From a virus, in IMG/VR virus record IMGVR_UViG_3300009084_000003, positions 1 to 64,000 of that record: DNA of 64,000 nt. The stretch is one strand, 5' to 3'. Shown piece after piece: positions 1,513 through 64,000 of the stretch (positions are counted from its first letter, which is position 1; each line of letters opens with the position of its first letter). Position numbers and translations under genes: made by a program. Below the pieces are notes generated by a model. The model was not told the DNA's origin, made no database searches, and was given only the letters and a program-made list of their open reading frames with translations.

Positions 1513-1528
1513 GGCTTCCTTTCCTGTT

Positions 1529-1541
1529 GACATACTATGTC
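1529..1541 (-). promoter_or_regulatory. Palindromic -10 promoter element (GACATAGTATGTC)
   Basis: Read on the minus strand the element is GACATAGTATGTC, a 13-bp palindrome around a central G, containing the -10-like hexamer TAGTAT. The predicted transcription start 6-7 bases downstream gives a short leader with a ribosome binding site before ATG 1512. The same element precedes genes at 19306, 30057, 38340, 48734 and 56223. Confidence 0.65.
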
Positions 1542-2576: not shown

Positions 2577-2594
2577 GTCTCTTTCCTGGGAGGA

Positions 2595-2625
2595 GGGCGG
2601 GCGGTGATGATCTCACCGCCCGCCC
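2595..2625 (-). terminator. Perfect 13-bp hairpin between two leftward genes
   Basis: GGGCGGGCGGTGA and its exact reverse complement flank a 5-base loop. It lies between the stop of the gene at 2638-2958 and the start of the gene at 1818-2576. No T-run follows, so it could be a Rho-independent-like terminator of the actinobacterial type or an RNA-processing/attenuation hairpin. Confidence 0.6.
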
Positions 2626-2637
2626 GGTTACCGCTGG

Positions 2638-2958: not shown

Positions 2959-3022
2959 GTCACTCCTTCTGTGTGCTGGCCTGACGCCGGAATTGGCATC
3001 AGGTGTTGCGCCTTTCGGCGGT

Positions 3023-3052
3023 GGGCCGCCGAGCGATGAAACTCGACGGCCC
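3023..3052. terminator. Hairpin (10-bp stem, one mismatch)
   Basis: GGGCCGCCGA pairs with TCGACGGCCC around a 10-base loop, downstream of the amidoligase operon (stop at 3108) and upstream of the gene at 2958. Position fits the transcription end of the amidoligase cassette. Confidence 0.55.
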
Positions 3053-3107
3053 GCTCCTGATAAAGCTGGCGACACGGGAGGGTTCACCCCCGCCCGGCCA
3101 ACACTTC

Positions 3108-5396: not shown

Positions 5397-5421
5397 GGTG
5401 GGTACCTTCCTTTCTTGTTCG

Positions 5422-6348: not shown

Positions 6349-6369
6349 TCTGTTCTCCTCTGTTGGTTG

Positions 6370-6891
6370 TCAGGCTTCCGCCCAGATCAGGTTGATGCCG
6401 TCGAATGTCGCGGTCAGGTCAGGCGAATCGTCGATGCTGACGATCTCGCCGTCGTCGCCGAAGATCGGGGCGTCGAAGCCCCACCACTCGATGAGGGCGT
6501 CCCCGTCGGCGACGGTCAGCATGTCGCGAATCCATTCGACGAGATCGAAGGCGGTGCCGTCATGCCGGTTGGTGTTGGTCGTGCCGTCGGCATGGGTCAC
6601 TCTGGCAAACTGCTTCCCGTCACCCATCGGGGCGGCGGTGGAAGGTCGCGAGATGACCTCCATGTTGTCGGTGATCCATGAGGTGGAGAAATGGAGTTCA
6701 TACCCGATTTCTCGGGGGTAGGTGGGGCCGGGGTCAACCAGCTGCATCACCCACTCGCCATACAGCGACTGGGCGGTGGCTACCCAGGTGTCACCGCCGA
6801 CCTGTTCGCCGTACGCGTTGCGCCGCGGGAGGCGTCGAAGCTGCGTCCCTACTTCGATTTCCAAGAGAACCTCCAATGACGATGTCGGCAT
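6370..6891 (-). CDS. Hypothetical protein
   Basis: 173 residues from ATG 6891; acidic, mixed alpha/beta, with several Trp residues (STSWITDN, WGFDAPIF). TTG at 6876 is an alternative start. Lies just upstream of the amidoligase cassette, separated by about 20 bases, so probably in the same transcript. No family recognised. Confidence 0.6.
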   Translation of the reverse strand: MPTSSLEVLLEIEVGTQLRRLPRRNAYGEQVGGDTWVATAQSLYGEWVMQLVDPGPTYPREIGYELHFSTSWITDNMEVISRPSTAAPMGDGKQFARVTHADGTTNTNRHDGTAFDLVEWIRDMLTVADGDALIEWWGFDAPIFGDDGEIVSIDDSPDLTATFDGINLIWAEA

Positions 6892-6952
6892 CCCTTGCAG
6901 GGACGCCAGTTCGGTCGATGTGATCGTGCGTGGCAGATGCAGGCGTGGAGGC

Positions 6953-7261
6953 TCATGTGGGCACCAGCGTCAGTTTGCGCTCGTCCTTGTCCCACTCGAA
7001 GCGCCCTACGCCCTCGGCAAGCCAGCGCAGGAAGGCCAGGACTTTGCCGATGAGAATGTTCAGGTCGGCAACTGTGTCATGGGGGCGTCCGAAGTCGCCC
7101 GTGTACCGACTTTCGCCGGTCTCGAAAGCGTAGACACAGCGAGCCTCGGGGCCGGACAGGTTGTACCCGTACTCGCGCCCTCGCTTCACGATGTCCAACT
7201 CGTTCTCAGCGAACACGCCGGGGGTGACGAGTGAATTGTCAGCCAGTTCGATCATCGCCAT
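6953..7261 (-). CDS. Hypothetical protein
   Basis: 102 residues, beginning MAMIELADNSLVTPGVF. ATG 7261 overlaps the 3' end of the upstream gene by ten bases and has GGGGAG upstream. The sequence ends KLTLVPT after a predicted helix (LIGKVLAFLRWLAEGV). Not recognised. Confidence 0.6.
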   Translation of the reverse strand: MAMIELADNSLVTPGVFAENELDIVKRGREYGYNLSGPEARCVYAFETGESRYTGDFGRPHDTVADLNILIGKVLAFLRWLAEGVGRFEWDKDERKLTLVPT

Positions 7262-7611
7262 GACTCCCCGTATTCGGCTTGATAGGCCTCGTATTCGGCT
7301 TGATAGGCGTCCCAATCCTTGTCAGCGTCCAGGTGGTCGATGACGGCTTCGTCGAACATGTCCGATGCCTCGAAGCCCCGGTCGAACCGGACAACGGACA
7401 CGAGTCCAATGTGTGTCTCGGTGACCAGATAGTCATGGCCGTAGAAGTCGAGCAGCAGCGCGTGCCAGCACGACCCAGTCCAAGTATCACCACAAGTGTA
7501 GGTGTCCTCGAAATGCTTGTCCTCGGCTCGCTCCATCGCTGCCAGGTAGACGACCATGTCCTTCATCGGAATGGCCTTCATCGGTATGTCTTTGTACTCT
7601 GCGGCGATCAA
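7252..7611 (-). CDS. Hypothetical acidic protein with short C-terminal repeat
   Basis: 119 residues using TTG 7611, which has GGAGG five bases upstream; a TTG at 7623 would place that site inside the gene. The C-terminus holds two copies of the seven-residue unit AYQAEYE, from a 21-bp tandem DNA repeat. Function unknown. Confidence 0.6.
   Translation of the reverse strand: MIAAEYKDIPMKAIPMKDMVVYLAAMERAEDKHFEDTYTCGDTWTGSCWHALLLDFYGHDYLVTETHIGLVSVVRFDRGFEASDMFDEAVIDHLDADKDWDAYQAEYEAYQAEYGESWR
7269..7308. repeat. 21-bp tandem duplication
   Basis: CGTATTCGGCTTGATAGGC occurs at 7269-7287 and 7290-7308, in phase with the reading frame of the gene at 7252-7611, and encodes the AYQAEYE duplication. 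It looks like a recent slippage event. Confidence 0.8.
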
Positions 7612-7690
7612 GGTCACCTCCAATCAGTCATGTGGACCCAGGGCACGACAGCCGAGGAGGGAAGCCCCTGCTCTGAATCCACATCACCGA

Positions 7691-7771
7691 TCAAAGGTCT
7701 GACCACAACCAGTCCCAATACGTCGCTAAGAGCATGACGATGGTGGGGATCACGAGTACCGGCCAGCTCAT
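7691..7771 (-). CDS. Single-pass membrane micropeptide
   Basis: 26 residues, MSWPVLVIPTIVMLLATYWD then WLWSDL: one hydrophobic transmembrane segment and a Trp-rich end. The ATG overlaps the stop of the upstream gene in an ATGA junction, supporting a real start. One of at least six micropeptides with a membrane segment in this window. Confidence 0.55.
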   Translation of the reverse strand: MSWPVLVIPTIVMLLATYWDWLWSDL

Positions 7772-7977
7772 GCGCTGACCTTGTCGGTGAGCTGCAACTC
7801 GATCACGGTGAGGTAATAGAAGGTGCGCTGATACTGACGCAGCAGCCGACTCACCACCGACGTGGGCGTGTGAATCCAAGGCTGCGCCTCACGGGTGCAG
7901 CGGATCGCTGAGGCTACGTTTGCACGTCGTTTACGGAGCGCCATGAGGTCGCTCGTGAATAGATGGTCTTGATTCAC
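7768..7977 (-). CDS. Small hypothetical protein
   Basis: 69 residues from GTG 7977, which overlaps the TGA of the upstream gene (GTGA). Basic middle (LRKRRANVASA) and an amphipathic C-terminus (YYLTVIELQLTDKVSA). No family recognised. Confidence 0.6.
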   Translation of the reverse strand: MNQDHLFTSDLMALRKRRANVASAIRCTREAQPWIHTPTSVVSRLLRQYQRTFYYLTVIELQLTDKVSA

Positions 7978-8267
7978 AGGAGCCTCACTCGCTCGACCAG
8001 GGCCGCTACTGCGGCCTCGCTCAGATATCCGATCACGTTGTCGGTGATGGCGGTGCTGTAGCAGAGACCCCCGTGGTGACGGACTGCGAACTCCCACAGC
8101 CCGTGTTGGTTGCCGTAGGAGCCGCTGAAGCGCACCACGCTCGCCCCGTACCCGTTGGGAAACTCGAATTGGTACAGCATCCCGTCTCCCACTGGGTGCG
8201 GCTTTGCAATCGTCGCCGGGTATTCAAGCGGGAACGGATGGTTTGGAATTGTTGTCATGCCCTGCAC
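7974..8267 (-). CDS. Hypothetical protein
   Basis: 97 residues from GTG 8267, five bases after GAGGAGG; an ATG nine bases further in is the alternative. Mixed beta-strand core with many aromatic residues (LYQFEFPNGYG). First gene of a three-gene operon reading to 7691. Confidence 0.6.
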   Translation of the reverse strand: MQGMTTIPNHPFPLEYPATIAKPHPVGDGMLYQFEFPNGYGASVVRFSGSYGNQHGLWEFAVRHHGGLCYSTAITDNVIGYLSEAAVAALVERVRLL

Positions 8268-8374
8268 TGTTTCCTCCTCTGAAATCGAGCCTGGGGCGAA
8301 ACGGCAATCGTCATCGTCTCGTTGCTTAGCAGCCCCCCGGTCAGCCTTGAAGCTGAGGGAACCCCAGGTAAGAA

Positions 8375-8572
8375 CTACCGGCTCGCTAGGGGCCGGGTGA
8401 GATTGTTGGCTGAGTTGACTTCATCAGCCCAGTTGACGAGTCGTACCGCCTGAGTTCTACCGCCGATGATGCGGTACAGGTGGGTCTCCCCGTGAATCTG
8501 CCGGGCGGCTCGAACCGTCATCATCGGCCGACCCTGGTCGTCGATATGAAGGGCTGCGCGTGGCGCTTTCAT
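8375..8572 (-). CDS. Small hypothetical protein
   Basis: 65 residues, MKAPRAALHIDDQGRPMMTV. ATG 8572 has TAGGAGG upstream. Basic and short, possibly nucleic-acid binding; not recognised. Its upstream side is the 637-bp gene-poor stretch at 8573-9209. Confidence 0.55.
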   Translation of the reverse strand: MKAPRAALHIDDQGRPMMTVRAARQIHGETHLYRIIGGRTQAVRLVNWADEVNSANNLTRPLASR

Positions 8573-8587
8573 GGTTCCTCCTAAGTG

Positions 8588-8810
8588 TCGATGTGATGAC
8601 CTTCGGCTGAAGGGATGTTGACAAACTCGCCGAACGTCGCTAGCAGACGATCGTCAATAGGTGGCCGTAGTCGTCCCACGCAAAGTAGCGTCGAACGCCG
8701 TTGGCGATTTCCATGTCGCACCTTCAAGTGGCGGAGATCATCCCGCCTTCAAGCTCCCCGACGGTTTCTATGCCGCTCACATGGGGGAGTGCTGAAGGTC
8801 ATCACATCGA
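8588..8810. repeat. 17-bp perfect inverted repeat bounding 189 bp
   Basis: TCGATGTGATGACCTTC at 8588-8604 is matched by its exact reverse complement at 8794-8810. The segment lies in the otherwise gene-poor stretch 8573-9209 and contains only a possible 24-codon reading frame. From 8867 to about 9200 nothing convincing was found. Confidence 0.75.
8640..8714 (-). CDS. Possible micropeptide inside the inverted-repeat segment
   Basis: 24 residues, beginning MEIANGVRRYFAWDDYGHLL, with GAAGGTGCGAC before the ATG. The composition looks like protein rather than random frame, but it is short and lacks operon overlap. Uncertain. Confidence 0.3.
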   Translation of the reverse strand: MEIANGVRRYFAWDDYGHLLTIVC

Positions 8811-8831
8811 GACTCACGAAGAGTGCTCGTG

Positions 8832-8866
8832 AGAGAACACGGGGCGTGGGGCCGTCCCCGTGTTCT
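8832..8866. terminator. Strong 12-bp hairpin
   Basis: GAGAACACGGGG pairs exactly with CCCCGTGTTCTC around an 11-base loop. Located in the gene-poor stretch between leftward operons; likely a transcription terminator or the core of a structured RNA. Confidence 0.6.
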
Positions 8867-9208
8867 CACACCAACACTCGAAAGTCGAGTGGCCCGACAC
8901 CTGGCCCATAGACCCGGCGTGTTATTGGAACCACTTAGAGGCATCCGCTCTAGATCGGCCCTCCCCTCAACCCGGACAGTTCGTTGGATACATAACCTCA
9001 TCTCTGCCGCATCCCGACTTGTTCAGGATGTTGGGCGCGGACTATTGGCGTCTTCACTTGAAGCCGAGTCGAGGCCCTCATCGCCCACTATTGAGCCGCT
9101 ACCCCTCGGAAGGAGCGCATTAGCTCGGGACAGTCACGCTGTCAGGCGTCGAGACCACTCGTGAGAGCCTTCCAGGGCCGTTGTTTCCCTAGAAGACTCA
9201 CACCAGCG

Positions 9209-9227
9209 GTCACGGATATACCGTGAC
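9209..9227 (-). terminator. Small hairpin at the end of a leftward operon
   Basis: GTCACGG pairs with CCGTGAC around ATATA, overlapping the stop codon of the gene ending at 9210. Its position at the 3' end of the operon 9210-10543 fits a terminator. Confidence 0.45.
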
Positions 9228-9512
9228 GGTGTGCTGAGAGTAGACGTAGCACTTACCACCCTTGTCGGCTGGCTCCTCACTCAAGAACCGAGGAACCTCC
9301 CAAGTCCCTCGCCCATCGGCAATGACCTCGATCGGGGAGTGGTAGTTGGCCTTCCGCCCGTTGAGGTGAATGACCACCTCGATCCGCTCTTCCTCCCCTT
9401 CCCGCCTGGCCCGCTTCGCGCACCCAGCGCAACTCCTCGACCTGTATCCGGTCAGAGCCCCATCCTCGCCCAGAGTATGGTCGTGGGTGTATCCGAAGTC
9501 GTCAAGACTCAC
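9210..9512 (-). CDS. CxxC-containing protein, tandem paralog 1 of 2
   Basis: 100 residues. The N-terminal block FGYTHDHTLGEDGALTGYRS and the following CAGC are nearly repeated in the upstream neighbour (FGYTHTHALNEDGTLARYRS, CAGC), so the pair arose by tandem duplication. The C-terminal halves differ. The ATG overlaps the stop of the neighbour (ATGA). His and Cys residues could bind a metal. Function unknown. Confidence 0.7.
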   Translation of the reverse strand: MSLDDFGYTHDHTLGEDGALTGYRSRSCAGCAKRARREGEEERIEVVIHLNGRKANYHSPIEVIADGRGTWEVPRFLSEEPADKGGKCYVYSQHTVTVYP

Positions 9513-9838
9513 TTCTCCTCCTTCTCGACCAGTATGGAACTCGAGTAGGCCGTTCGGTAAACAGCGTTGACCCGCTCGGTCCCCACATAGGTGACCACTG
9601 GCGGGATGAACTCCCTGGGCTGATTGTGATTCTCGTCCCGCTCGTCACACCCAGCGCAACCCGACCTGTAACGCGCCAGAGTCCCATCCTCGTTCAGAGC
9701 ATGGGTGTGGGTGTACCCGAAGGTGTCGATCTCGGGCTGGCTCAACTTCCACTGAAGGTAAGCCTCCTGCCCCTGCACCGTCGAAAGGTCAAACCCCGAG
9801 GTGCTCACAAACTCCACCCCCAACCGCTCGCCGCTCAT
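9509..9838 (-). CDS. CxxC-containing protein, tandem paralog 2 of 2
   Basis: 109 residues from ATG 9838 (MSGERLGVEF), overlapping the upstream stop in ATGA. Shares the FGYTHTHALNEDG/CAGC block with the next gene, followed by a separate C-terminal part. A 32-bp stretch at 9541-9572, in the coding region, is almost identical to the sequence at the stop codon of the gene ending at 12338. Confidence 0.7.
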   Translation of the reverse strand: MSGERLGVEFVSTSGFDLSTVQGQEAYLQWKLSQPEIDTFGYTHTHALNEDGTLARYRSGCAGCDERDENHNQPREFIPPVVTYVGTERVNAVYRTAYSSSILVEKEEK

Positions 9839-10038
9839 GGCAACCTCTCGACCCACTCGAAAGCTAGGTCTTCGGTCGCAAGCGTGGGGGAACTCGTCCC
9901 CTTATTGCCAGTCCAGAAGTAGCCATCGCTGGCCACGAACAGAGACAAGGTCTCCCCCGTGGTGCGGTTGTCCACCGCAGAGATTCGCAGGTTCAACCAG
10001 CCCGTCGGGTCAGACCCAACAACCTCCTCGTCGTTCAT
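9835..10038 (-). CDS. Small hypothetical protein
   Basis: 67 residues, MNDEEVVGSDPTGWLNLRIS, then FVASDGYFWTG, suggesting a small beta-domain. ATG 10038 is preceded by AGGTGG. Part of the leftward operon that starts at 10543. Not recognised. Confidence 0.6.
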   Translation of the reverse strand: MNDEEVVGSDPTGWLNLRISAVDNRTTGETLSLFVASDGYFWTGNKGTSSPTLATEDLAFEWVERLP

Positions 10039-10041
10039 GGC

Positions 10042-10194
10042 CTACCACCTCACCTTGTGGTCTCGCAGGCGAGCCTCTCGGCAGTACTCCACTGGGGTCA
10101 AGGTTCGCACCCCAGCATCGTCGTAAACAACGAAGTCGCCTTTCTCCTCCATCAACACGATGGTGATGGCCTCCGGCTCGTCCTCGCCGGTCAT
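10042..10194 (-). CDS. Small hypothetical protein
   Basis: 50 residues, MTGEDEPEAITIVLMEEKGD at the N-terminus. The ATG overlaps the stop of the upstream gene in an ATGA junction. The acidic start and beta-strand pattern (GDFVVYDDAGVRTL) resemble small phage early proteins. Not recognised. Confidence 0.6.
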   Translation of the reverse strand: MTGEDEPEAITIVLMEEKGDFVVYDDAGVRTLTPVEYCREARLRDHKVRW

Positions 10195-10364
10195 GGCTGC
10201 ATCTCCTCAAGCCACGCGTACAGCGCCCCCTCGAAAGGAGAGCAAGGCTGAGGCTCGCAAGGGGGATCGTAGAGCGAGTACACCCTGCCCGGCTCACAAT
10301 CTTCTCGTGCAGGTGCCCCCAATGCGAACATCAGGGTTCTCACCGCCGGCTCGTCCTCGGTCAT
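10191..10364 (-). CDS. Small hypothetical protein
   Basis: 57 residues starting MTEDEPAVRTLMFALG, with a Pro/Cys-rich middle (DPPCEPQPCSPFEG). Starts at ATG 10364 just after the upstream gene stops and ends in an ATGA overlap with the next gene. The N-terminus resembles that of the following gene (MTGEDEPEA), possibly a remote duplication. Confidence 0.55.
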   Translation of the reverse strand: MTEDEPAVRTLMFALGAPAREDCEPGRVYSLYDPPCEPQPCSPFEGALYAWLEEMQP

Positions 10365-10366
10365 CT

Positions 10367-10543
10367 TCACTTGAGTGCCATCCTCTCCAAGGTCCGCTCG
10401 TACTGAGCGACCCCCACGGCCTCCTCGACACTTGCGATCGCCTTGCGGATCAAGATGCGATTCCCCAGGTCAAGCTGACCCAGCGCGTCGATCTTGTCAG
10501 CCAACGCCCGCAAATGCGTCGTTGAAACCACTCGCTCACTCAT
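10367..10543 (-). CDS. Small helical protein, first gene of the leftward operon
   Basis: 58 residues, MSERVVSTTHLRALADKIDA, almost entirely alpha-helical. Preceded by the strong site GAGGAGGG. It faces the non-coding control region containing the SOS-box cluster, so its promoter must lie between 10544 and about 10650 or within that cluster. Confidence 0.65.
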   Translation of the reverse strand: MSERVVSTTHLRALADKIDALGQLDLGNRILIRKAIASVEEAVGVAQYERTLERMALK

Positions 10544-10596
10544 CAAAGCCCTCCTCAGAGCTAGTAGGTACCCCCTAGAGAGACCTCTCCACAGAA

Positions 10597-10620
10597 AGGG
10601 GAGGGGGGAGGGGGGAGAGG
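10597..10620. other. G-rich polypurine tract in the control region
   Basis: Runs of four, six and six G separated by single A residues on the plus strand, next to two copies of GGTACCCCC at 10567 and 10619. It could form a G-quadruplex or act as a replication or transcription pause site. The whole 10544-11186 stretch shows no convincing gene. Confidence 0.5.
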
Positions 10621-10654
10621 TACCCCCCCGGATTCCTTACTCATTTCTCCCGGA

Positions 10655-10908
10655 TCGAACAAACGTTCGCTAGGGGTCAATCGAACAAACGTTCGAGACC
10701 GCCCTATCGAACAAACGTTCGACGAGAACAACTAAAGCCGATCGAACAAACGTTCGACTGACAGCGATCGAACGAGTGTTCGATGAGAACAACTAAGTCG
10801 ATCGAACAGAGGTTCGACCAAAGCCTATCGAACAAACGTACTGCCGGCCGGAATCGAACAAACGTACGACTGCAACCTAGATGACCTAGGGAATCGAACA
10901 ACCGTTCG
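10655..10908. promoter_or_regulatory. Cluster of nine LexA/SOS-type boxes
   Basis: Nine copies of a TCGAACnnnnGTTCG element start at 10655, 10681, 10707, 10742, 10768, 10802, 10828, 10854 and 10894. Seven match GAAC-N4-GTTC perfectly, the LexA (Cheo) box known from Bacillus and mycobacteria; those at 10828 and 10854 have GTAC instead of GTTC. Five of the eight start-to-start steps are exactly 26 bp, the others 34, 35 and 40. The cluster separates the leftward operon (10543) from the rightward gene at 11187. Host or phage LexA-like protein is the expected ligand. Confidence 0.85.
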
Positions 10909-10921
10909 ACTGCAACCTTCA

Positions 10922-10947
10922 CCATTCGGTAAACAGTGTTGACCGAA
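10922..10947. repeat. 26-bp direct repeat, left copy
   Basis: Identical over 26 bases to 12340-12365; the two copies flank the gene at 11187-12338. Each contains the inverted arms TTCGGT and ACCGAA around AAACAGTGTTG. A third, slightly diverged copy is at 9551-9572 within a coding region. Confidence 0.8.
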
Positions 10948-10976
10948 CGCCACGACGCAACGAAGCGCACCGACGA

Positions 10977-11130
10977 CAATGGCGACACCAAGGGCACCGG
11001 AACTACGCGGACCGGGGCAACGAACGAGCAAGGGCAACGAACGGGCAAGGGGAGAACCGAGCCGCAGGAGCGAGCCGACGAGCAACGAACAGACAATGGC
11101 GCGCCTAGGTGCACCGAAACTGCGCGGCAC
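10977..11130 (+). repeat. Imperfect duplication in the leader region of the gene at 11187
   Basis: Two stretches beginning ACAATGGCG, near 10977 and 11095, share most of about 36 bases (GGCACCGGAACTACGCGG versus TGCACCGAAACTGCGCGG). Between them CAACGAAC..GGCAAG units repeat, bearing GAAC half-sites. An open frame through 10979-11185 exists but has poor composition and is not called. Confidence 0.45.
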
Positions 11131-11186
11131 TCTGATAGCGTTCCGAACTGGTGGTCCGAACAGACGAGGCCCGCCGAGAGGATGAC

Positions 11187-12338
11187 ATGTCGAACCGATC
11201 AACACTGACGAGAAACGCAGTCCGTTTCTCTGAGCAGACAGACCACGAAGCGCGGGTGCTTGAGAGCGAAGAACTTGCCGAGTTGGAATACCGAGGGGTG
11301 AACACGCGGAGCTACTCGCTACGCACGTCTAAGGCGTTCCGAACGAGCGAATGGGCCTACTTGACCGAACAGGATTTAGTGGACGCTACAGCCGACTACA
11401 CGGCACGCCTTGAGGCTGTGAAGCGTGACGTCAAGGCGAAGCGACTGACAGGAGCTACGGCGAAGAGAGCACTCCGCAACGCAGAGCACGCGCTCACCGT
11501 TGCCGAGCGTCAGACACTCGACAGCGTGACCCGCGAGGACGACACTGACTTCGACCCGCTGATCGCTGATCTCATCATCGGCAAGTGTGCTACCGGGCAG
11601 TACGTGATGCCCAGTAGCGACGCCATCCTGATCACGTCGAAAGACCCGATGGCAGTCACGAAGTGGTCCGCGGACCTTGAACACGCGGCGACGATGTTCC
11701 TTCATGCTCATGGCGTGCGCACTACTGCCCGACCCGACGTGTTGCCACGGTACGCCACGCGACGTCGTGCGATGAGCGATGACGTCGCATTCAAGGGTAC
11801 GGCTCGGTATGCCCTTCCCAAGCCATGCCGAGTCGGCTCTCTGGGCAATGAGCCCGCGGAACTGGGCAACGTCGAAACGCACGTCACGGAGCTACTCGTC
11901 ACGCCGCGTTTCGTGCTTGTTGACGGTGTGCTGACACTGAACAACGGGCGCGTTCGTAAGGCGTGGCGCGGCCACCGTTCGATCCTCGTTCGACTGTCGT
12001 CAAGGCGAAGCGCGAGCGAGACGACGCGCAAGGCGAGGCGCGCCCAGTCAGTCGCGACCGACAAGGTGGCGAAGCGTGGCCCGGCCCGCGATCCGTGGAA
12101 CCTTTCGCCGCGGAGCATTCCCGCCCGACTCAAGGCGACGACGGGCGCTACCGAACTTGCCCTACGCCTTGAGTCGGTACTGCGCACGTCGACCTACGGC
12201 GCGACCCTCTCGCTGAGCGATGGGACAACGGTGGCACTCACCGACGTTTCGTTGAGTACAGCCCAGTATCGGGACGTCGCCTATCCGGTCCGCGAACTGT
12301 CACGCCGCGCCGCGCTCGCCGGGCTCACTGTCGAGTAG
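11187..12338 (+). CDS. Basic protein of unknown function controlled by the SOS-box region
   Basis: 383 residues from ATG 11187, with GAGAGG upstream; a GTG at 11151 is a possible longer start. The N-terminal part is acidic and helical (VLESEELAELEYRG), residues 100-200 contain an ordered region (DFDPLIADLIIGKC), and the C-terminal half is Arg-rich. No domain is recognised. It is the first rightward gene after the nine-box cluster, is flanked by 26-bp direct repeats and ends in a strong terminator, so it forms a monocistronic unit. Candidates include a replication or control protein, but this is inference from position. Confidence 0.6.
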   Translation: MSNRSTLTRNAVRFSEQTDHEARVLESEELAELEYRGVNTRSYSLRTSKAFRTSEWAYLTEQDLVDATADYTARLEAVKRDVKAKRLTGATAKRALRNAEHALTVAERQTLDSVTREDDTDFDPLIADLIIGKCATGQYVMPSSDAILITSKDPMAVTKWSADLEHAATMFLHAHGVRTTARPDVLPRYATRRRAMSDDVAFKGTARYALPKPCRVGSLGNEPAELGNVETHVTELLVTPRFVLVDGVLTLNNGRVRKAWRGHRSILVRLSSRRSASETTRKARRAQSVATDKVAKRGPARDPWNLSPRSIPARLKATTGATELALRLESVLRTSTYGATLSLSDGTTVALTDVSLSTAQYRDVAYPVRELSRRAALAGLTVE

Positions 12339-12339
12339 G

Positions 12340-12365
12340 CCATTCGGTAAACAGTGTTGACCGAA
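12340..12365. repeat. 26-bp direct repeat, right copy
   Basis: Exact copy of 10922-10947, beginning two bases after the stop of the gene ending at 12338. Its last five bases form part of the terminator stem. Confidence 0.8.
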
Positions 12366-12404
12366 TAGGGGACCGTTCGCAATCGCGGGCGGTCCCCTAT
12401 TCGG
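12361..12404 (+). terminator. Strong terminator hairpin (15-bp stem)
   Basis: CCGAATAGGGGACCG at 12361-12375 pairs exactly with CGGTCCCCTATTCGG at 12390-12404 around a 14-base loop. It closes the transcript of the gene at 11187-12338. The rest of 12405-12679 holds promoter-like GTGTTACAC elements and no convincing gene. Confidence 0.8.
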
Positions 12405-12453
12405 GGCCGCGATGGCAGGCGCGTGCCATTCCCTCTAGTCCCGACCATCCGAT

Positions 12454-12462
12454 GTGTTACAC
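12454..12462 (+). promoter_or_regulatory. GTGTTACAC element, copy 1
   Basis: Nine-base palindrome around a central T that includes TACAC, a plausible -10 with the extended TG motif. It sits in the intergenic region after the terminator at 12404. Related copies lie at 12630, 14447, 14555 and, elongated, at 18604. Confidence 0.5.
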
Positions 12463-12629
12463 CTTCCACTGTTCCTTCTACTGGTTTGCAGGGGGGGTTT
12501 GGCGGTTGCCGACCCTCCTGTCCCGTCCAGGCCGGTAAACAGGCCGTTTGCGGGCTCTAGAGAGGGGGTTGGGGTGCATGGGTGGGTGCCGGGTTGGCTC
12601 TTGCGTGGGTGGGGGCCATGATGTAAGAT

Positions 12630-12638
12630 GTGTTACAC
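12630..12638 (+). promoter_or_regulatory. GTGTTACAC element, copy 2, promoter of the small-gene operon
   Basis: Same palindrome, about 42 bases before the ATG at 12680, with a purine-rich GAAGAGGG site between. Best candidate for the promoter of the genes 12680-14426. Confidence 0.55.
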
Positions 12639-12679
12639 CGTCGGTTCCGTTGTGGACCGCACTAGGGAAGAGGGTTGGA

Positions 12680-12772
12680 ATGGACAGGTTCTGGGTGGGT
12701 TGGGCGATAGGTCTGGTCGGTGGTTTGGCTGGGGTTTTGGCTGGGGTTTACTTCGCTTGGTGGTGGAAGTGA
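12680..12772 (+). CDS. Membrane micropeptide
   Basis: 30 residues, MDRFWVGWAIGLVGGLAGVL then AGVYFAWWWK: a Gly-rich transmembrane segment ending in WWWK. GAAGAGGG lies eight bases upstream. Its stop shares a base with the next start (TGATG). First gene of a coupled operon. Confidence 0.6.
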   Translation: MDRFWVGWAIGLVGGLAGVLAGVYFAWWWK

Positions 12773-13116
12773 TGTGCTGGTCGTGTGTTGTGAGTGAGTT
12801 TGTCAATGCCGGGTTGACGCCTGAACAGGTGGAGATCACTCCCGAAATGGACCGCTTGGCGGGGGCGATCTGGGCGTGGTATCAGATGCCCGGCAATGAG
12901 GCGGGCGGTGTGTTGCACGTCGTAACAGACGACTTCAACATCGACGATCACAGCTTGGACTTCTGCTCTACCTTTGAGGCCGAGAGCCTCGACGCCGAAT
13001 ACGCCGAGGCTCGGGACTTCATCATCGACGGCATGCGCGTCCTCTCTATCCCAGAGCGCGCTCTGGTTGTGTGGCATGGCTTTGTCTCACCCGAGACGCG
13101 CAGGGTGGTGAAGTGA
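12772..13116 (+). CDS. Hypothetical protein
   Basis: 114 residues starting MCWSCVVSEFVNAGLTPEQ. Acidic, with an N-terminal CxxC. TGATG overlaps join it to both neighbours, so translation is coupled. Not recognised. Confidence 0.6.
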   Translation: MCWSCVVSEFVNAGLTPEQVEITPEMDRLAGAIWAWYQMPGNEAGGVLHVVTDDFNIDDHSLDFCSTFEAESLDAEYAEARDFIIDGMRVLSIPERALVVWHGFVSPETRRVVK

Positions 13117-19849: not shown

Positions 19850-20830
19850 GTGGCAAATCCAGCATTCATTCGTGACGGCGAAGACTGGGACGATGGTTGG
19901 TCCCGCGCCCCGCATGGCCTGTGGACCCTCGACATCCCCAACGGGGCCAAAGTGCTACTCGGGTGGCTCCATTCGCACTCCGGCGCGTTCCTGAACGGCG
20001 TGACGGTGAACCAAGCACGCCGGGCTGTTGGGTCGTCCTCGATCAAGGTCTGGTTTGAGTCGCTAGAGGCTGCCGGGTTCATCGAGATCGCCCGCAAAGA
20101 CAACGGCACGCAGTCTCAGTTCACCCTCAAGATGGCCCCCTGGAAGGCCCTCATCGGCAGGCCGGACCGCGCCGAAATTAGCGCGGTAACCGCGCCGAAA
20201 TCGGCGCGCACAGAAGAACACCTAGAAGATCACTGTTCTTCTTCACTTCGTTCAGAAGAAGAACTCAACGCGGAAAGTCGCGTAGATACTCAAGAGCGCA
20301 TCACGCCAACGACGATCGCTCGGGAATACTGGGACTGGCACGTCGAGGATCGCGGCAAGCCACCCACCCAGACCTTCCTTGCCCTCCAGAGCATCGCGAA
20401 AGCACTCACGAAAGCTGGGTATCAACCCGATGAGATCATTGACGCGATGAAGGTCGCCAAGGTGATGACCGCCAAAGCCCTCACTGACGTTGCGGCCGAG
20501 CAGAAGCACAAGCGCGACGACACGCCGAACACGCAGGCGATCCCAGCAGCGATCGTCAGGGCGTTCGCGAAGTGTGAGTCGTGGTTCGAGCGGAGGGACT
20601 TGATGACCGGGGCGTCGCGGACACACTGGATGCGCCTGTGTGCTTCGCAGGTGAACTTCGGCTACGGGCCGGGTGAGACCATGTTGCGCATGGCGGTCGC
20701 GCTTCGCACCGGCAACGCGACCACCTTCGCTCTCAGTGATGCGAAGGTCGAGCGTTTCAACGGTGAACTCGCCGACTACCCCGACGCGATGGAACGGGCG
20801 TACGTCAACCAGGCTTGGAGCGCACGATGA
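19850..20830 (+). CDS. Winged-helix replication protein (helicase loader/initiator-like)
   Basis: 326 residues from GTG 19850. Residues 20-95 (LLGWLHSHSGAFLNGVTVNQ, then SLEAAGFIEI) form a winged helix-turn-helix like those of phage replication initiators. Residues 150-260 are helical and may bind the helicase. An Arg/Glu/Ser linker separates the two. It is directly upstream of, and coupled to, the release-factor-like gene and the replicative ATPase gene, which fits a DnaD- or gpO-like role at the origin. Confidence 0.6.
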   Translation: MANPAFIRDGEDWDDGWSRAPHGLWTLDIPNGAKVLLGWLHSHSGAFLNGVTVNQARRAVGSSSIKVWFESLEAAGFIEIARKDNGTQSQFTLKMAPWKALIGRPDRAEISAVTAPKSARTEEHLEDHCSSSLRSEEELNAESRVDTQERITPTTIAREYWDWHVEDRGKPPTQTFLALQSIAKALTKAGYQPDEIIDAMKVAKVMTAKALTDVAAEQKHKRDDTPNTQAIPAAIVRAFAKCESWFERRDLMTGASRTHWMRLCASQVNFGYGPGETMLRMAVALRTGNATTFALSDAKVERFNGELADYPDAMERAYVNQAWSAR

Positions 20831-21207
20831 GCGACCGGGAACTCCTCATGCGTATCACCGCCAAGGATTTCGAGATCACCGCCATCCGCGGTTCGGGGCC
20901 GGGAGGACAACACCGCAACAAGGTGTCGTCGGGCCAGCGGTTCAAGCACAAGGCGTCGGGCGCTGTCGGGGAAGCCACCGACGACCGTAGTCAACTCGCC
21001 AACAAGCAGCAGGCGTTCAGGCGCTGCGTTGCTACCAAAGAGTTCCAGGCGTGGTTTCGTATCGCCGTTGCTGAGGCGCAGGGTCGCCCGAGCACCGAGT
21101 CGCTGGTTACTGCCGCGATGAAGCCGGGCAACATCGACACCCAGATTCTGGTCGACGATCGTTGGGTCACCATCGACCCCTCCCTGCTCGAAGGCGACGA
21201 ATCGTGA
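20827..21207 (+). CDS. GGQ-domain release-factor-like protein (peptidyl-tRNA hydrolase)
   Basis: 126 residues. GSGPGGQHRNKVSS at 22-35 is the GGQ loop of class I release factors, which triggers peptidyl-tRNA hydrolysis in the ribosome. The codon-recognition domain is absent and the C-terminal basic tail of ArfB is replaced by an acidic end. Related stand-alone GGQ proteins occur in actinophages. ATGA start and GTGA end place it inside the replication operon. May rescue stalled ribosomes or alter termination. Confidence 0.8.
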   Translation: MSDRELLMRITAKDFEITAIRGSGPGGQHRNKVSSGQRFKHKASGAVGEATDDRSQLANKQQAFRRCVATKEFQAWFRIAVAEAQGRPSTESLVTAAMKPGNIDTQILVDDRWVTIDPSLLEGDES

Positions 21208-55790: not shown

Positions 55791-56213
55791 ATGGCGAAGG
55801 AGCGGAATACCGAAGGCAACATCGACGATCTCGGTGTTCTGATAACTGCGGCCATTGGCCTTGATCGGGAATGGATGGAGCAGGGGGCGTGCTACGGGTG
55901 GGGCTCGCAGCGTCCCGGCCAGCCGACCCCGTGGCAGGTTTCGCCGGGCCAAAACGTCAACGGCATCTCGGGCGCAGAGATGGCGCGGTATGCGCAGATG
56001 ATCTGCTTCTCCTGCAAGGCACAGTACGACTGCCTGGAGTTCGCCATTGAGGGGAAGATGCTCGCCGGGACATGGGCGGTGCGAGCCAAGACGCTGTACT
56101 GGTTGCAGTCACAGGACGATGCGCTCGACCTCGTGGCGATGGCGCGCCGGAACAAAGTGCCAGTGCAGACCATCGCGTCGAGCGTCATGGCGGAGCGGCT
56201 CAACGCGACGTAG
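55791..56213 (+). CDS. WhiB-like Fe-S transcription factor
   Basis: 140 residues. Four Cys: ACYG (Cys34), then CFSCKAQYDC (Cys72, Cys75, Cys81), the WhiB iron-sulfur cluster pattern, followed by GTWAV, where most WhiB proteins have GVWGG. An insert of about 20 residues between Cys34 and Cys72 is unusual. WhiB proteins act with the host housekeeping sigma factor and exist only in actinobacteria and their phages. Leaderless start. Likely controls late or host genes. Confidence 0.85.
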   Translation: MAKERNTEGNIDDLGVLITAAIGLDREWMEQGACYGWGSQRPGQPTPWQVSPGQNVNGISGAEMARYAQMICFSCKAQYDCLEFAIEGKMLAGTWAVRAKTLYWLQSQDDALDLVAMARRNKVPVQTIASSVMAERLNAT

Positions 56214-56824: not shown

Positions 56825-57259
56825 ATGAGCGAGACAGTCACCTTCGATGAGCTGATGGGCCGCGAGTTGTTCGTTGAGCTGGTCGCGGGCGGGGTTGCGC
56901 CGATCAACGCTGGCATCCAGGTGGGGTGGACGCCACGTCAGTTGAAGCGAGAGCTGGCCGACCGTGATTTCAGGGAGCTGGTCGACGCCGCGTCTGAGCG
57001 CCTGATCGGGTCGGTGGAGGAGACGCTGGTCGCCGTTGCGAAGCGGGGGAATGTCGCCGCCATCACCCTGTTCCTCTTCAACCGCGCCCCCGACCGCTGG
57101 CGCGACGTGAAGCGCATCGAGATAAAGAACGACCTCACCATCAGTCTCGGCATGGTCGCCTCCGTGAAACAGGGGGCGCTGGAGCTACTGCGCGAGCAGG
57201 GCGTTGGGGCTATCCAGGCCCTAGAGCCGCCGATCATCGACGCGGAGGTCGTGGAGTGA
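56825..57259 (+). CDS. Terminase small subunit
   Basis: 144 residues; TAGGGT ends six bases before the ATG, so leaderless. A helix-turn-helix (NAGIQVGWTPRQLKRELADR) and a following helical region with RDVKRIEIKND fit the DNA-recognition role. GTGA-coupled to the large subunit. Recognises the packaging site, not identified here. Confidence 0.75.
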   Translation: MSETVTFDELMGRELFVELVAGGVAPINAGIQVGWTPRQLKRELADRDFRELVDAASERLIGSVEETLVAVAKRGNVAAITLFLFNRAPDRWRDVKRIEIKNDLTISLGMVASVKQGALELLREQGVGAIQALEPPIIDAEVVE

Positions 57260-58809
57260 CGCCCGAACAGGAGCACCTTCAACGCATCGCCCTACCCTCG
57301 AAGGTCGGCCAGCACATCGGCCAAGAGGTCTTCGGTGAGCCGTACATCATGTTCCCGTTCGTCGCTCACGCCGAGCAACGCATCGTCGACGCGATCATGG
57401 ACACCGAACACGAACGCTACGTGATCGTGAACGCCCCACCGCAGGTCGGCAAGTCGACCTACTGCGGCATCCTGCTGCCATTCTGGGTCACCGGCATGTT
57501 CCCACAGTGGCAGGTCATGTACATCTCGTACTCCGACGACTTCTCGACCGCTCGCGGCAAAGACGTTCGCACCCTCCACAACTTGTACGGCAATGAGTTG
57601 TTCGGTTCGCGCATTGACCCTGACTTCACGATGGCAACCGACTGGCGGGTGTCGGGCGGGCGAGGCGGGATGCTGTCGGTCGGTGTCGGTGGTCTTATCA
57701 CTGGCCGACCGGGCCACGTCATCATCATCGACGACCTCATCAAGAATGCCCAGGAGGCAGCGTCCGCAGCGACGAAGAGGGCGCACTTGGCGGAGTGGGA
57801 TGGAACAATCAACCGCCGCATCCAGCCGGGCGGCACCGTCATCATTATTGCTACCCGCTGGGCAGAGGATGATCTGTCGGGCGCGCTGATTGAGCGCATG
57901 AAAGAGCCGGGCTACTCCGGCCCACAGTGGGAGATCATTGAGTTCCCTGCGTTCGCTGAACCCGCCGACGACGTCGAGCTGACCGACGAAGAGTTGGAGC
58001 AGTGGCGTGACGTCATTGGCCGCGAGAACGGCGAAGTGCTCGACTGTCGGTTCTCTCGCATCCCCTCGCGTCCTCCCGAAGACTTCTTCACTCTCGTGCG
58101 CGCAGGCATGGACGGATTCGCCTGGTCGTGTCTTTACCAGCAGAAACCCTCCGCTCGTGAGGGCGGCATGTTCCCTGTCGTCAATTGGCAGTTCTACGAA
58201 CACGCCGAGCTGCCGCAGATGGACAAGCAGGTTCGCATCTGGGACTTGGCCGCGACCGAGGGGGGTGGTGACTGGACGGTCGGCACGCTGATGGGCAGGG
58301 CGGGTGACAAGTTCTACGTGCTCGACGTCCAGCGGTTCCGCAAGAGTGCTGGCGGGGTGCAGGATGAGGTGAAGCGCGTCGCAGCGAGGGACGGCTTCAA
58401 CATCAAGATCAAGTTCGAGGAAGAGAAGGGCGGCTCGGGCAAATCAGTCACCGAGGCGTACCGCCGCCTGCTCGTTGGTCACACCGTCGAACCCTCGAAG
58501 GCTGAAGGCGACAAGGAATCCCGCTGCACCCCGTACTCGTCGGAGCAGAACAAGAGGCGAGTGTTCCTTCCTCGCCCTGGCACTGCCGATTGGGATGTCA
58601 AGGTGTTCATCGAGGAGCACCGCAAGATGATGGGTGACGGTCGCCGCCCCAAGCACGACGACCAGATCGACACCGCCGCCTACTGCGTGTTGGAGCTGCT
58701 CGGCGCTGGCACTGTCGAGATGTGGTCCCCGACGTCAGGGTCGAACTGGATGACCGCTCAGCAGCAGATGGACCGACTAATAGAGGAGCGCTTCCCGTGG
58801 GAGGGGTAG
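57256..58809 (+). CDS. Terminase large subunit
   Basis: 517 residues from GTG 57256. Walker A NAPPQVGKST at 59-68; Walker B HVIIIDDL near 155; the nuclease domain has RIWDLAATEGGGDWT near 335 and DDQIDTAAY near 475, the acidic residues for two metals. ATP-driven DNA packaging and cutting at the portal. Its 3' end overlaps the convergent gene at 58777 by 33 bases. Placed at the end of the structural block rather than its start, unusual for siphoviruses. Confidence 0.9.
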   Translation: MTPEQEHLQRIALPSKVGQHIGQEVFGEPYIMFPFVAHAEQRIVDAIMDTEHERYVIVNAPPQVGKSTYCGILLPFWVTGMFPQWQVMYISYSDDFSTARGKDVRTLHNLYGNELFGSRIDPDFTMATDWRVSGGRGGMLSVGVGGLITGRPGHVIIIDDLIKNAQEAASAATKRAHLAEWDGTINRRIQPGGTVIIIATRWAEDDLSGALIERMKEPGYSGPQWEIIEFPAFAEPADDVELTDEELEQWRDVIGRENGEVLDCRFSRIPSRPPEDFFTLVRAGMDGFAWSCLYQQKPSAREGGMFPVVNWQFYEHAELPQMDKQVRIWDLAATEGGGDWTVGTLMGRAGDKFYVLDVQRFRKSAGGVQDEVKRVAARDGFNIKIKFEEEKGGSGKSVTEAYRRLLVGHTVEPSKAEGDKESRCTPYSSEQNKRRVFLPRPGTADWDVKVFIEEHRKMMGDGRRPKHDDQIDTAAYCVLELLGAGTVEMWSPTSGSNWMTAQQQMDRLIEERFPWEG

Positions 58810-59620: not shown

Positions 59621-59860
59621 TTAGACCGCCTCCGTCAGCGCCGCCATCCCAGCGGCGGTGATCGTGATGGCGCGGGGTGCGTCGGGGTACATGGTGATGA
59701 GGCCCTTCGCCTGCAACAGCTTCAAGTTCGCGTTGGTGCTTGCCGGGGACGCCAGCCCGCAACCTTTGGCGATCTCACGCTGTGATGGAACGAAGCCGCG
59801 GGTGTCGACTGATTCTTTGATGATGCGAATGATGTCCCGTTCGCGCTGCGTGATGGTCAT
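59621..59860 (-). CDS. Stand-alone LexA-type DNA-binding domain (no autoprotease)
   Basis: 79 residues. TQRERDIIRIIKESVDTRGF then VPSQREIAKGCGLASPAS, LKLLQAKGLI and PRAITIT follow the LexA N-terminal winged helix-turn-helix from end to end. In full LexA a cleavage site and S24 peptidase (Ser/Lys) follow; here the protein ends, so it can bind DNA but not be cleaved by RecA. Helix 3 (about 37-50) would read GAAC-N4-GTTC boxes, nine of which are clustered at 10655-10908. AGGAG lies upstream; in ATGA overlap. Without its dimerisation domain, binding may need paired or clustered boxes. Confidence 0.85.
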   Translation of the reverse strand: MTITQRERDIIRIIKESVDTRGFVPSQREIAKGCGLASPASTNANLKLLQAKGLITMYPDAPRAITITAAGMAALTEAV

Positions 59861-60162
59861 GTGTTGATCTCCTGTTCGGCGTGTGTGGTCGGAACGCTAG
59901 CGGGTTCAAGAAGCCGGTAGCAGTAGATGGTCAGGTCGTCCGTCTGGGTGACAACCTGCGGGGCGGGTGCTGTGTACAAGCGAACGTCCAAGAGTTCCCC
60001 GTCATGGGTGGAAAGTGTGGCTTCGAGAATCGCCGCCGTCCACGGCATCCGGTACACGGCGCTCCCGTTGTTGAGGTTGAGGCTGATGGGGAACAGATCG
60101 AACCGCCTGCCGCCTGTCGTCCTTATCGTCAGCACGGGGGCGGTGAAGTAGTTGATGCTCAC
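59857..60162 (-). CDS. Hypothetical protein
   Basis: 101 residues from GTG 60162 in a GTGA overlap. MSINYFTAPVLTIRTTGGRR then FDLFPISLNLNNGSAVYRMP: beta-rich. It lies between the methyltransferase and LexA-like genes. Not recognised. Confidence 0.6.
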   Translation of the reverse strand: MSINYFTAPVLTIRTTGGRRFDLFPISLNLNNGSAVYRMPWTAAILEATLSTHDGELLDVRLYTAPAPQVVTQTDDLTIYCYRLLEPASVPTTHAEQEINT

Positions 60163-60938
60163 ATCTTCACCTTCCGGGGCTTCGGCTTGCGGAAGACGAA
60201 GCACACGCTGTAGTTGTTGCGTGCGTGCTTCACCTTGCGCTCGATGCGGCCGGTGCCCTTGCACTTGTGGCAAACCTGCACCCCGACGACCTCCCCGACG
60301 ACAACAACGGCCGTCTCTCCGCTGCCTCCGCACGCTTTGCATGGGCCGTCCTTTGGTTGGGCGCGCACGTCGCCGATATGGATGAGCATGTCGTGGATCG
60401 TCAACCCCATCGCCAGCGCAGCGTCACGCGCCCACCAGTCGCCGTCCTTACGGACGCCCGATGAGATGTACGGGGCGCACTTGGCGAGAATCAGCCCGCC
60501 GGGCTTCGTGATCTTCATGGCCTCGCGGAGACCGAGTTCGTTGTCGGCCTGCAATAGCTCGGGTGTGGTCGCTGCGTTCTCCAGCCCGTAGCGGCCCATG
60601 AAGTCCGGCAGCCCCGACGTAGCCCGACCCCCCATTGAAACGTAGGGCGGGTCGAAGACCACCACGTCGAACTGCTCGGTGTAACCGAAGGACGGGATGA
60701 ATACATCGCGGTAGTCGGGCAACACGCACAGCCATGCTGCCTGCTCATCCTGCGTTGTTTGCTCGGGAGTTTCGACGCACCCGATGAAGTCGCCAGGGTG
60801 CGTGTAGTGCGTCCACCACTTCCCACCCCCGTAGGTGAGGTCGATCACTCGGTCGGTGGGTTTGATGTAGCCCAGCTCAACGATGTCCACGATCATGTCG
60901 GCGTTTGTCGGCCATTTCGTGGCTGCGGTGACGGTCAT
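60159..60938 (-). CDS. DNA methyltransferase with DnaJ-type zinc insertion
   Basis: 259 residues. DLTYGGGKWW near residue 33 replaces the usual DPF-x-G-x-G motif I, and FDPPYV near 96 is motif IV of N6-adenine or N4-cytosine methylases, for which S-adenosylmethionine is the donor. KPGGLILAKC near 150 is motif VIII-like. Residues 195-235 hold CKACGGSG and CHKCKGTG, the pattern of DnaJ zinc fingers, then a C-terminal basic tail. Could protect phage DNA from restriction. Confidence 0.75.
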   Translation of the reverse strand: MTVTAATKWPTNADMIVDIVELGYIKPTDRVIDLTYGGGKWWTHYTHPGDFIGCVETPEQTTQDEQAAWLCVLPDYRDVFIPSFGYTEQFDVVVFDPPYVSMGGRATSGLPDFMGRYGLENAATTPELLQADNELGLREAMKITKPGGLILAKCAPYISSGVRKDGDWWARDAALAMGLTIHDMLIHIGDVRAQPKDGPCKACGGSGETAVVVVGEVVGVQVCHKCKGTGRIERKVKHARNNYSVCFVFRKPKPRKVKM

Positions 60939-61215: not shown

Positions 61216-61493
61216 GGGATCACTTTCCTGCTGGTGTGAGCTGGGCGCTCCATCTCGACGATCGCATCTGCCAAGGCCATCAGCCGCCCCTTCGCCTTCG
61301 AGCCGGTGATCTGCACCGTAGAGCGAGCGGCACTGCCGAAGTAGATGAAGCCAATATTGTTGGTGTTCAACGACACGGACATGGCCGAGCGCGGCATGGC
61401 GAGAATCAGCATCCCGTCAGGGCTTCCAAGGAACAGTTTGCGTCCTTGCCACACCTCAACGGTCGAGTAGTCGTCTATCTGGATGAGTCTCAT
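61212..61493 (-). CDS. Hypothetical protein
   Basis: 93 residues, MRLIQIDDYSTVEVWQGRKL. Strand-rich first half (LILAMPRSAMSVSLNTNNIG), helical end. GGGAGG precedes ATG 61493 within the rusA 3' end. Not recognised. Confidence 0.6.
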   Translation of the reverse strand: MRLIQIDDYSTVEVWQGRKLFLGSPDGMLILAMPRSAMSVSLNTNNIGFIYFGSAARSTVQITGSKAKGRLMALADAIVEMERPAHTSRKVIP

Positions 61494-61876
61494 TCCTTGG
61501 CCTCCCAAGTGAGCGTGATCGACAGCGAGCTGGCTGCGATGTCGGTGGTGAATGTTGGCTCGACGGTGTGGACGTGCTTCGAGTCGTCGTCGGGCCAGAC
61601 GGCCGCATCGGTGAACCCATCGCAAATTGCTTTGACCGTCGGAAAGAAATTGTGAGGGTCGCGCCGTTGGTCCGGCTTGTCGGTGCCGAACGCCACCCAT
61701 ATCTCGACGGTGGCGTCGGGTGCGGTGTGACAACGGATGCGATGCTGTTTCGCCCACCAGAACGCTGCAGCGCGCCAGACAGAAACAGACCCGGCACGCT
61801 CGGACCAGTGGCCGCGATCATTCATGTTGAGCAGCTTGTCGGGCTTTGGGACGGTGATCGAAAGGGTGGTGAGCAT
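61490..61876 (-). CDS. rusA: RusA-type Holliday junction resolvase
   Basis: 128 residues, similar in length to the family. NMNDRGHWSERAG and RRDPHNFFPTVKAICDGFTD then DDDSKHV give the conserved Asp/His cluster that binds magnesium at the active site. Cuts four-way junctions in phage recombination and replication. TAATG overlap with the upstream gene. Its last 14 codons were duplicated to the mini-ORF at 61156-61215. Confidence 0.85.
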   Translation of the reverse strand: MLTTLSITVPKPDKLLNMNDRGHWSERAGSVSVWRAAAFWWAKQHRIRCHTAPDATVEIWVAFGTDKPDQRRDPHNFFPTVKAICDGFTDAAVWPDDDSKHVHTVEPTFTTDIAASSLSITLTWEAKE

Positions 61877-62827: not shown

Positions 62828-62913
62828 GACGCCACCATCCTGACTACGAGCATCAAGACGAGGCCCATCAGGGCGGCACCGAAACACATGGAGGCGAAGG
62901 AGATGCGGCTCAC
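62824..62913 (-). CDS. Membrane micropeptide
   Basis: 29 residues from GTG 62913; MSRISFASMCFGAALMGLVL then MLVVRMVAS: one hydrophobic helix. Lies in GTGA overlaps with SSB and the following gene. Confidence 0.5.
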   Translation of the reverse strand: MSRISFASMCFGAALMGLVLMLVVRMVAS

Positions 62914-63278
62914 TGCTTCTCCCGTTCGATGCGATCAACAACCGCAGTTGCCCAACGCAACGACACGCCGACCTCGTCAGCGACGAGCACCAGCTTCGAG
63001 CGTTTCTTGCCGGTGTCCTTGTCGTCCCACTCTTCCTGCTTCACCCGGCCGGTGCAAACCACCCGAGTGCCTTTCGCGCAGGAAGCGGCGACGTTCTCAG
63101 CGAGAGCGTTCCAGACGGTGACGTCCCACCAGGCGGTCTCTTCGACCCACTCTTCCTGCTTCTTGTAGCGGTGAGACACCGCAACAACGAGAGACGCAAT
63201 CGCGTGCCCGTTGTTCGTGAACCGTAGCTCCGGGTCTTTGCCCAGCGATCCGACGATGGTGACCATTGAGTCACTCAT
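62910..63278 (-). CDS. ssb: Single-stranded DNA-binding protein
   Basis: 122 residues with an OB fold: MVTIVGSLGKDPELRFTNNG, AIASLVVAVSHRY, WWDVTVWNALAENVAASCAK and GTRVVCTGRV follow bacterial SSB. The usual acidic C-terminal tail for partner binding is missing (ends EREKQ). GAAAGAAGG precedes ATG 63278. Coats phage replication intermediates. Confidence 0.9.
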   Translation of the reverse strand: MSDSMVTIVGSLGKDPELRFTNNGHAIASLVVAVSHRYKKQEEWVEETAWWDVTVWNALAENVAASCAKGTRVVCTGRVKQEEWDDKDTGKKRSKLVLVADEVGVSLRWATAVVDRIEREKQ

Positions 63279-63658: not shown

Positions 63659-63840
63659 TAGAAACATTCCTCCTTGTCAGCGTGGTTCGTGCAGTAATAC
63701 TCGGTGCCGCCTACACAGATGGGGGCTGGCAGGTTGCAGAGCGCCCCGTCTTCTAGTTCGGCGTCGCAGGCTGCTGCGACGCCGTTCTCGTTGCGGGGGA
63801 GCGGCAGCCACTCGTAGTGGGTGTGCTTGTACTTCGTCAT
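63658..63840 (-). CDS. Small Cys/His-rich protein
   Basis: 60 residues, MTKYKHTHYEWLPLPRNENG. CDAELEDGALCNLPAPICV and CTNHADKEECF give five Cys and His that could bind zinc. TAATG overlap with the next gene and ATGA with the upstream one. Confidence 0.55.
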   Translation of the reverse strand: MTKYKHTHYEWLPLPRNENGVAAACDAELEDGALCNLPAPICVGGTEYYCTNHADKEECF

Positions 63841-64000
63841 TGGAGGGCCTCTAATCCCAATTCGTCCGCGGTCGGCTCCGGGGTGGAGCCAGCGGTGAGT
63901 TGGATGAAGGCGAGCAGGTCGTCGGCCTTGTCGCCGGAGCGCATCACGTTGCCGACGCCGAGGTTGTCTTTGGCGTGGGTGCTGACGATCTTCTTCGTGT
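63837..64000 (-). CDS. Partial hypothetical protein, cut by the right edge
   Basis: C-terminal 54 or so residues of a longer protein: STHAKDNLGVGNVMRSGDKA then DDLLAFIQLTAG and TADELGLEALQ. Stop overlaps the next start in ATGA. Upstream gene of the DNA-metabolism operon; its promoter lies beyond the window. Not assigned. Confidence 0.6.
   Translation of the reverse strand, partial: TKKIVSTHAKDNLGVGNVMRSGDKADDLLAFIQLTAGSTPEPTADELGLEALQ

Follow-up and report, generated by a model that had tools for sequence, protein, structure and literature searches.

A stand-alone LexA-type DNA-binding protein of a putative actinophage and its relation to an array of nine SOS-box-like palindromes

The stretch of DNA analysed here (hereafter the window, 64,000 nucleotides) is part of a virus record of 67,272 bp and encodes a stand-alone LexA-type protein of 79 residues, located close to the distal end of a leftward operon that also encodes an ERF-type annealing protein, a single-strand DNA-binding protein (SSB), a RusA-like resolvase and a DNA methyltransferase-like protein, and that runs toward a rightward terminase gene (Table 1). 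The ATG start of the LexA-type gene overlaps the stop of the gene upstream. Some 49 kb away in the record, an array of nine SOS-box-like palindromes separates a leftward gene block (73-10543) from a rightward one (from 11187), both diverging from it. A WhiB-like gene at 55791-56213 and the sequence of the boxes point to an actinobacterial host. Elsewhere in the window, a putative amidoligase gene (3108-4067) adjoins a gene for a class II glutamine amidotransferase (4068-5312), and a phage protein with an RF-1 (peptidyl-tRNA hydrolase) domain is encoded at 20827-21207, directly upstream of a DnaB-like helicase.

Table 1. Features of the window considered in this study, with their coordinates and the evidence for them.
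Feature	Position	Strand	Evidence or remark
Nine SOS-box-like palindromes, TCGAAC-N4-GTTCGA type	10655..10909		Non-coding, flanked by divergent genes; regarded as a separate element
Second operator-like palindrome, 21 bp, TCGGTAAACAGTGTTGACCGA / TCGGTnAACAnTGTTnACCGA	10926..10946		17 bp past the last box
Terminase large subunit	57256..58809	+	phrog_38, E=1.6e-75; converges with the leftward operon
Stand-alone LexA-type winged-helix DNA-binding protein, 79 aa	59621..59860	-	PF01726, AlphaFold and Foldseek, coding score, start/stop overlaps with neighbours
S38 codon of the LexA-type gene	59744..59746	-	Alignment; S38 invariant in all LexA-type sequences compared
Protein of 101 aa, no family match	59857..60162	-	Upstream gene, 4-bp overlap with the LexA-type gene
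DNA methyltransferase-like protein with C-terminal DnaJ-type zinc-finger motif	60159..60938	-	phrog_24333, E=2.4e-7; PF00684 weak
RusA-like Holliday junction resolvase	61490..61876	-	phrog_34, E=1.7e-18
Single-strand DNA-binding protein (SSB)	62910..63278	-	Cosmo gp78 ('ssDNA binding domain protein') is 42% identical, E=7e-26
ERF-type annealing protein	63837..64000, on to ~64622 of the full record	-	Encoded in the leftward operon; phrog_155, E=1.4e-21 (L048:3838-4623)

A Pfam search aligned residues 3-64 of the 79-residue protein with positions 4-65 of the LexA_DNA_bind profile (PF01726; E=1.4e-17, 63.6 bits for a curated cut-off of 23.7 bits), the other winged-helix families scoring far below, and its sequence matches in the PDB were exclusively LexA, down to an E-value of 4e-5. 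An AlphaFold model built from an alignment with LexA and gp13 of phage Wildcat reached a mean pLDDT of 88.7; its top Foldseek matches were LexA-DNA complexes, LexA 3jso being the closest (TM 0.79, rmsd 1.3 Å), and MarR- and DtxR-type proteins ranked lower in the list. The recognition helix predicted by this model comprises residues 39-51 and starts beside S38. The linker, the Ala-Gly cleavage site and the S24 Ser-Lys peptidase/dimerisation domain present in the full-length LexA of the alignment are missing, the reading frame ending at residue 79 and the next one (62 aa) having no Pfam match. The protein corresponds to the DNA-binding half of LexA, devoid of the autoprotease and, since it has neither cleavage site nor peptidase, RecA-triggered cleavage cannot act on it. 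A first-pass annotation, made from the letters of the window, had already proposed this LexA winged-helix identity and immunity to cleavage, both of which are upheld here; it had also let the protein stop after the PRAI(T/V) strand, which is incorrect, as 15 more residues follow the wing (PRAITI) and are modelled with one extra helix (69-76).

No relative of the protein was retrieved by pattern search of IMG/VR and of GTDB genomes. Its length and its composition, a LexA domain alone, are those of the phage stand-alone LexA-DBD regulators (~65-110 aa). Such domains have already been described, contrary to the first-pass annotation, which knew of no phage system of this kind, and the 79-residue protein adds another to them. 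One of them, gp6 of the Bacillus phage GIL01 (2018), is a truncated LexA reduced to its DNA-binding domain, with 44% identity to the LexA of B. thuringiensis in this region; it binds the palindrome GaCACAnnTGTGaC, not LexA boxes, and activates the late promoter P3, where host LexA sits on tandem boxes simultaneously with gp6, and its authors proposed that gp6 evolved toward the recognition of a distinct sequence (PMC6182141). GIL01 combines host-LexA boxes with a truncated LexA, and tandem SOS boxes are likewise found in both genomes. It differs from the present virus in being a Firmicute tectivirus with few boxes, against nine here. Among the truncated LexA of phages, gp6 is the one with a mapped site and a demonstrated effect on transcription, those of the 79-residue protein being putative.

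Another, gp13 of Wildcat (2020), is a LexA-like protein of 77 aa, toxic to M. smegmatis with a toxicity index of 5, a small loss of viability and an unchanged cell shape, and it co-precipitates with Msmeg_1285 (PMC7474061). The gp13 shared by Wildcat and Cosmo (KP027195), the closest annotated counterpart in a phage, is also a stand-alone LexA-like protein, 41% identical to the one of the window over 68 residues (tblastn E=2e-7). Cosmo, a Wildcatvirus of M. smegmatis, has an actinobacterial host as well, and its leftward gp13 operon abuts rightward terminase genes, with a methyltransferase, gp11, two genes away from gp13. Conversely, gp11 is not similar to the methyltransferase of the window, Cosmo gp13 lacks the extra C-terminal helix, and the synteny is partial: among the proteins of the window, only the LexA-type protein, the SSB and, weakly, a helicase match the Cosmo genome. 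LexA-type domains without S24 also adjoin a RusA resolvase in SfV (orf42) and mEp390 (gp43), where they are referred to as phrog_362 'transcriptional repressor'; these differ by an E. coli-type recognition helix, a length of ~107 aa, another C-terminal part and a lambdoid context. Further stand-alone LexA domains were found beside dinB in Psychrobacillus phage PVJ1 and in Phage Wrath. Their location beside RusA in mEp390 and SfV and beside dinB in PVJ1 suggests that they are repeatedly associated with genes for recombination and repair.

The protein shares with actinobacterial LexA the winged-helix fold and ~40-45% identity over the domain. In the domain tree the actinobacterial LexA form a clade supported at 95/96, outside which the 79-residue protein falls, so that it is unlikely to have arisen by recent truncation of a LexA from actinobacteria. 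It groups only weakly (45/62), and on long branches, with Cosmo gp13, PVJ1 and a further sequence, G080. The truncation relative to LexA and the fast divergence (branch length 3.0) could be those of a functionless, degenerate remnant of a host LexA. Against this stand the intact reading frame, its coding signal and the overlap of its start and stop with its operon neighbours, as well as a confidently predicted fold and the existence of independent stand-alone relatives in unrelated phages. On the grounds of frame, fold and relatives, degeneration was rejected as very improbable, and the protein is best described as a functional-looking regulator.

The boxes of the array start at 10655, 10681, 10707, 10742, 10768, 10802, 10828, 10854 and 10894. 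Seven of the nine have a perfect GAAC-N4-GTTC core and two have one mismatch; six display the full TCGAAC-N4-GTTCGA sequence, which has no other exact copy in the record (67,272 bp) and none in the reversed control. None of 200 Markov genomes contained three or more cores within 260 bp. The nine boxes reported at 10655-10908 in the first-pass annotation are thus confirmed and match the actinobacterial SOS box, unlike the fixed 26-bp spacing that it attributed to them: the actual spacings are 26, 26, 35, 26, 34, 26, 26 and 40 bp, and the 60-61-bp repeat unit that they contain suggests tandem duplication. Its explanation of the number of boxes by the lost dimerisation domain of the 79-residue protein is weak, as each box is a complete two-half-site palindrome and the spacing is irregular; moreover GIL01 gp6, itself reduced to the DNA-binding domain, occupies a single palindrome. 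Beyond the last box, the 21-bp palindrome has an exact copy at 12344-12364, which runs into a strong hairpin (12361-12404), and a degenerate copy at 9554-9574, for 0.01 expected by chance. It is a candidate operator, either for the 79-residue protein or for another regulator. No relatives were found for the 383-aa gene beside the array, which therefore could not be traced through related phages, and a 4.3-kb relative of the terminase region stops short of both the gene and the array.

Whether the protein and the boxes belong together was approached through the residues of the contact region, compared with those of 33 distinct LexA of the GAAC-box type (29 actinobacterial, from 80 genomes, and 4 Firmicutes-type). 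Residues invariant in all 33 are altered in the 79-residue protein (S40A, V42T, R57M, D58Y, K/R61A), and positions 43 and 45, which are A/S/K/H and Q/H respectively in LexA, are both N. S38, S41 and L46 are retained, as are the residues conserved outside the contact region (G22, P25, R28, E29, I30, G35, L36, L46, L49, G53, P62, R63). The divergence is therefore concentrated where specificity is set. A40 is common to the 79-residue protein, Cosmo gp13 and PVJ1, and T42 to the 79-residue protein and Cosmo gp13. Judging from these substitutions, an indirect guide to specificity, the protein probably does not bind GAAC-N4-GTTC boxes.

The opposite was proposed in the first-pass annotation, in which the protein should bind the boxes and could form an SOS-independent circuit with them. 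The protein would then be an uncleavable competitor of host LexA at the nine boxes (TCGAACAAACGTTCGA) and at host SOS boxes, controlling the divergent region of the phage or keeping the SOS genes of the host repressed, so that neither set of genes would depend on DNA damage. Such a role would fit a genome of 67 kb that contains both a LexA-type domain and perfect SOS boxes of the host type, as well as the presence of the array-type core upstream of actinobacterial lexA genes (27 of 80). In a circular or permuted genome, the array, which lies in the divergent region where the leftward operon could start, could head the operon holding the LexA-type gene; no end overlap was found in the record, in which 49 kb separate the gene from the array, and this distance counts against a joint function. 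PF01726 was slightly commoner among further viral records containing at least two boxes, many of them fragments, where it exceeded the cut-off in 5 of 140 versus none of 100 controls (one-sided p=0.066; counting the related pair G052/G185 once gives p=0.11), a difference that neither proves an association nor shows that there is none. In this pair of metagenomic phages, a LexA-like gene of ~70 aa lies ~1 kb from a 3-box SOS-like array, possibly an independent case of gene and array together. Another record considered as a second pair, G024, was discarded, its array being located inside the gene upstream of a DnaB-like helicase, ~37 kb from its LexA-like gene. Conversely, most arrays of the 140 records occur without a LexA-type domain, and in Cosmo the domain is unaccompanied by an array, the 78 kb containing a single isolated GAAC-N4-GTTC core. 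Together with the altered contact residues and the precedent of GIL01 gp6, which binds another site, these observations make the competitor improbable and speak against the proposed circuit.

The array itself could be explained without the protein, by host-LexA operators or by origin iterons. A GAAC-N4-GTTC core was found within 400 bp upstream of the above 27 of 80 actinobacterial lexA genes, and all 28 boxes had the CGAAC-N4-GTTCG form, the actinobacterial/Firmicute SOS-box sequence that the array also displays. As the same motif precedes actinobacterial lexA, host LexA is expected, from established SOS biology, to bind the array. In this reading, host LexA would hold the early promoters of the phage until the SOS response frees them, as happens at P1 and P3 in GIL01, and the 79-residue protein would be a further phage factor with its own site. 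The agreement of the boxes with the actinobacterial SOS consensus, their non-coding position between divergent genes, the WhiB-like gene and the pairing of tandem LexA boxes with a truncated LexA in GIL01 all favour such operators, to which we attribute a probability just short of even. Less easily reconciled with them are the number of boxes, far above that usual at an SOS promoter, the lack of any sigma-70-like promoter in 10200-12900 (for the E. coli-type consensus only) and the lack of an integrase or a repressor among the annotated genes.

Alternatively, the boxes may be origin iterons bound by an initiator of the phage itself, their likeness to SOS boxes being convergent. In viral contigs, at least 119 stretches contain three or more GAAC-N4-GTTC, versus 19 for CAAG-N4-CTTG, a palindrome of equal composition. 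Arrays were located inside an ORF in 65 of 121 cases, and among 45 of these ORFs, 27 matched the replication initiation proteins of phrog_270 and 21 an O-like family, so that a large share of the viral GAAC-N4-GTTC arrays are probably origin iterons. Several terminase genes are among the longer genes near non-coding arrays. The possible tandem duplication of the 60-61-bp unit would also suit iterons. Iterons of the lambda O type lie within or beside the initiator gene, whereas the array of the window is intergenic, outside any initiator gene and ~9 kb from the candidate initiator at 19850-20830, upstream of the DnaB-like helicase. This candidate has no similarity to the array-bearing initiators, and no especially AT-rich stretch adjoins the array. 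Iterons thus keep an appreciable, if minor, likelihood, and host LexA is placed slightly ahead of them on account of the agreement of the whole 16-mer with the SOS consensus.

Overall, we consider it fairly probable that the 79-residue protein is a small phage regulator with an operator of its own, other than GAAC-N4-GTTC, and that the array is a separate element serving host LexA or replication. DNA binding by the protein, its distinct specificity, its regulatory role and the binder of the array are inferred. The protein would be an early-type transcription regulator made from the leftward ERF/SSB/RusA/DNA methyltransferase operon, most likely binding its own palindromic operator as a dimer, by means of the DNA-binding domain alone. 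It may tune phage, and possibly host, promoters in the manner of GIL01 gp6. The nine boxes would work independently of it, either as host-LexA operators, in which case early transcription would follow the host SOS response, or as replication-origin iterons.

The 79-residue protein represents an actinophage addition to the small and little-studied group of phage regulators reduced to the LexA DNA-binding domain, and in unrelated phages LexA-only domains are repeatedly found next to genes for recombination. The arrays found in other viruses call for caution, as a GAAC-N4-GTTC array in a phage is not necessarily an SOS-LexA element, many of them lying within replication-initiator genes. The pairing of the gene with the array is attractive, unsupported and, in our judgement, improbable; should the protein bind the boxes after all, it would compete with LexA independently of damage and would deserve a study of its own.
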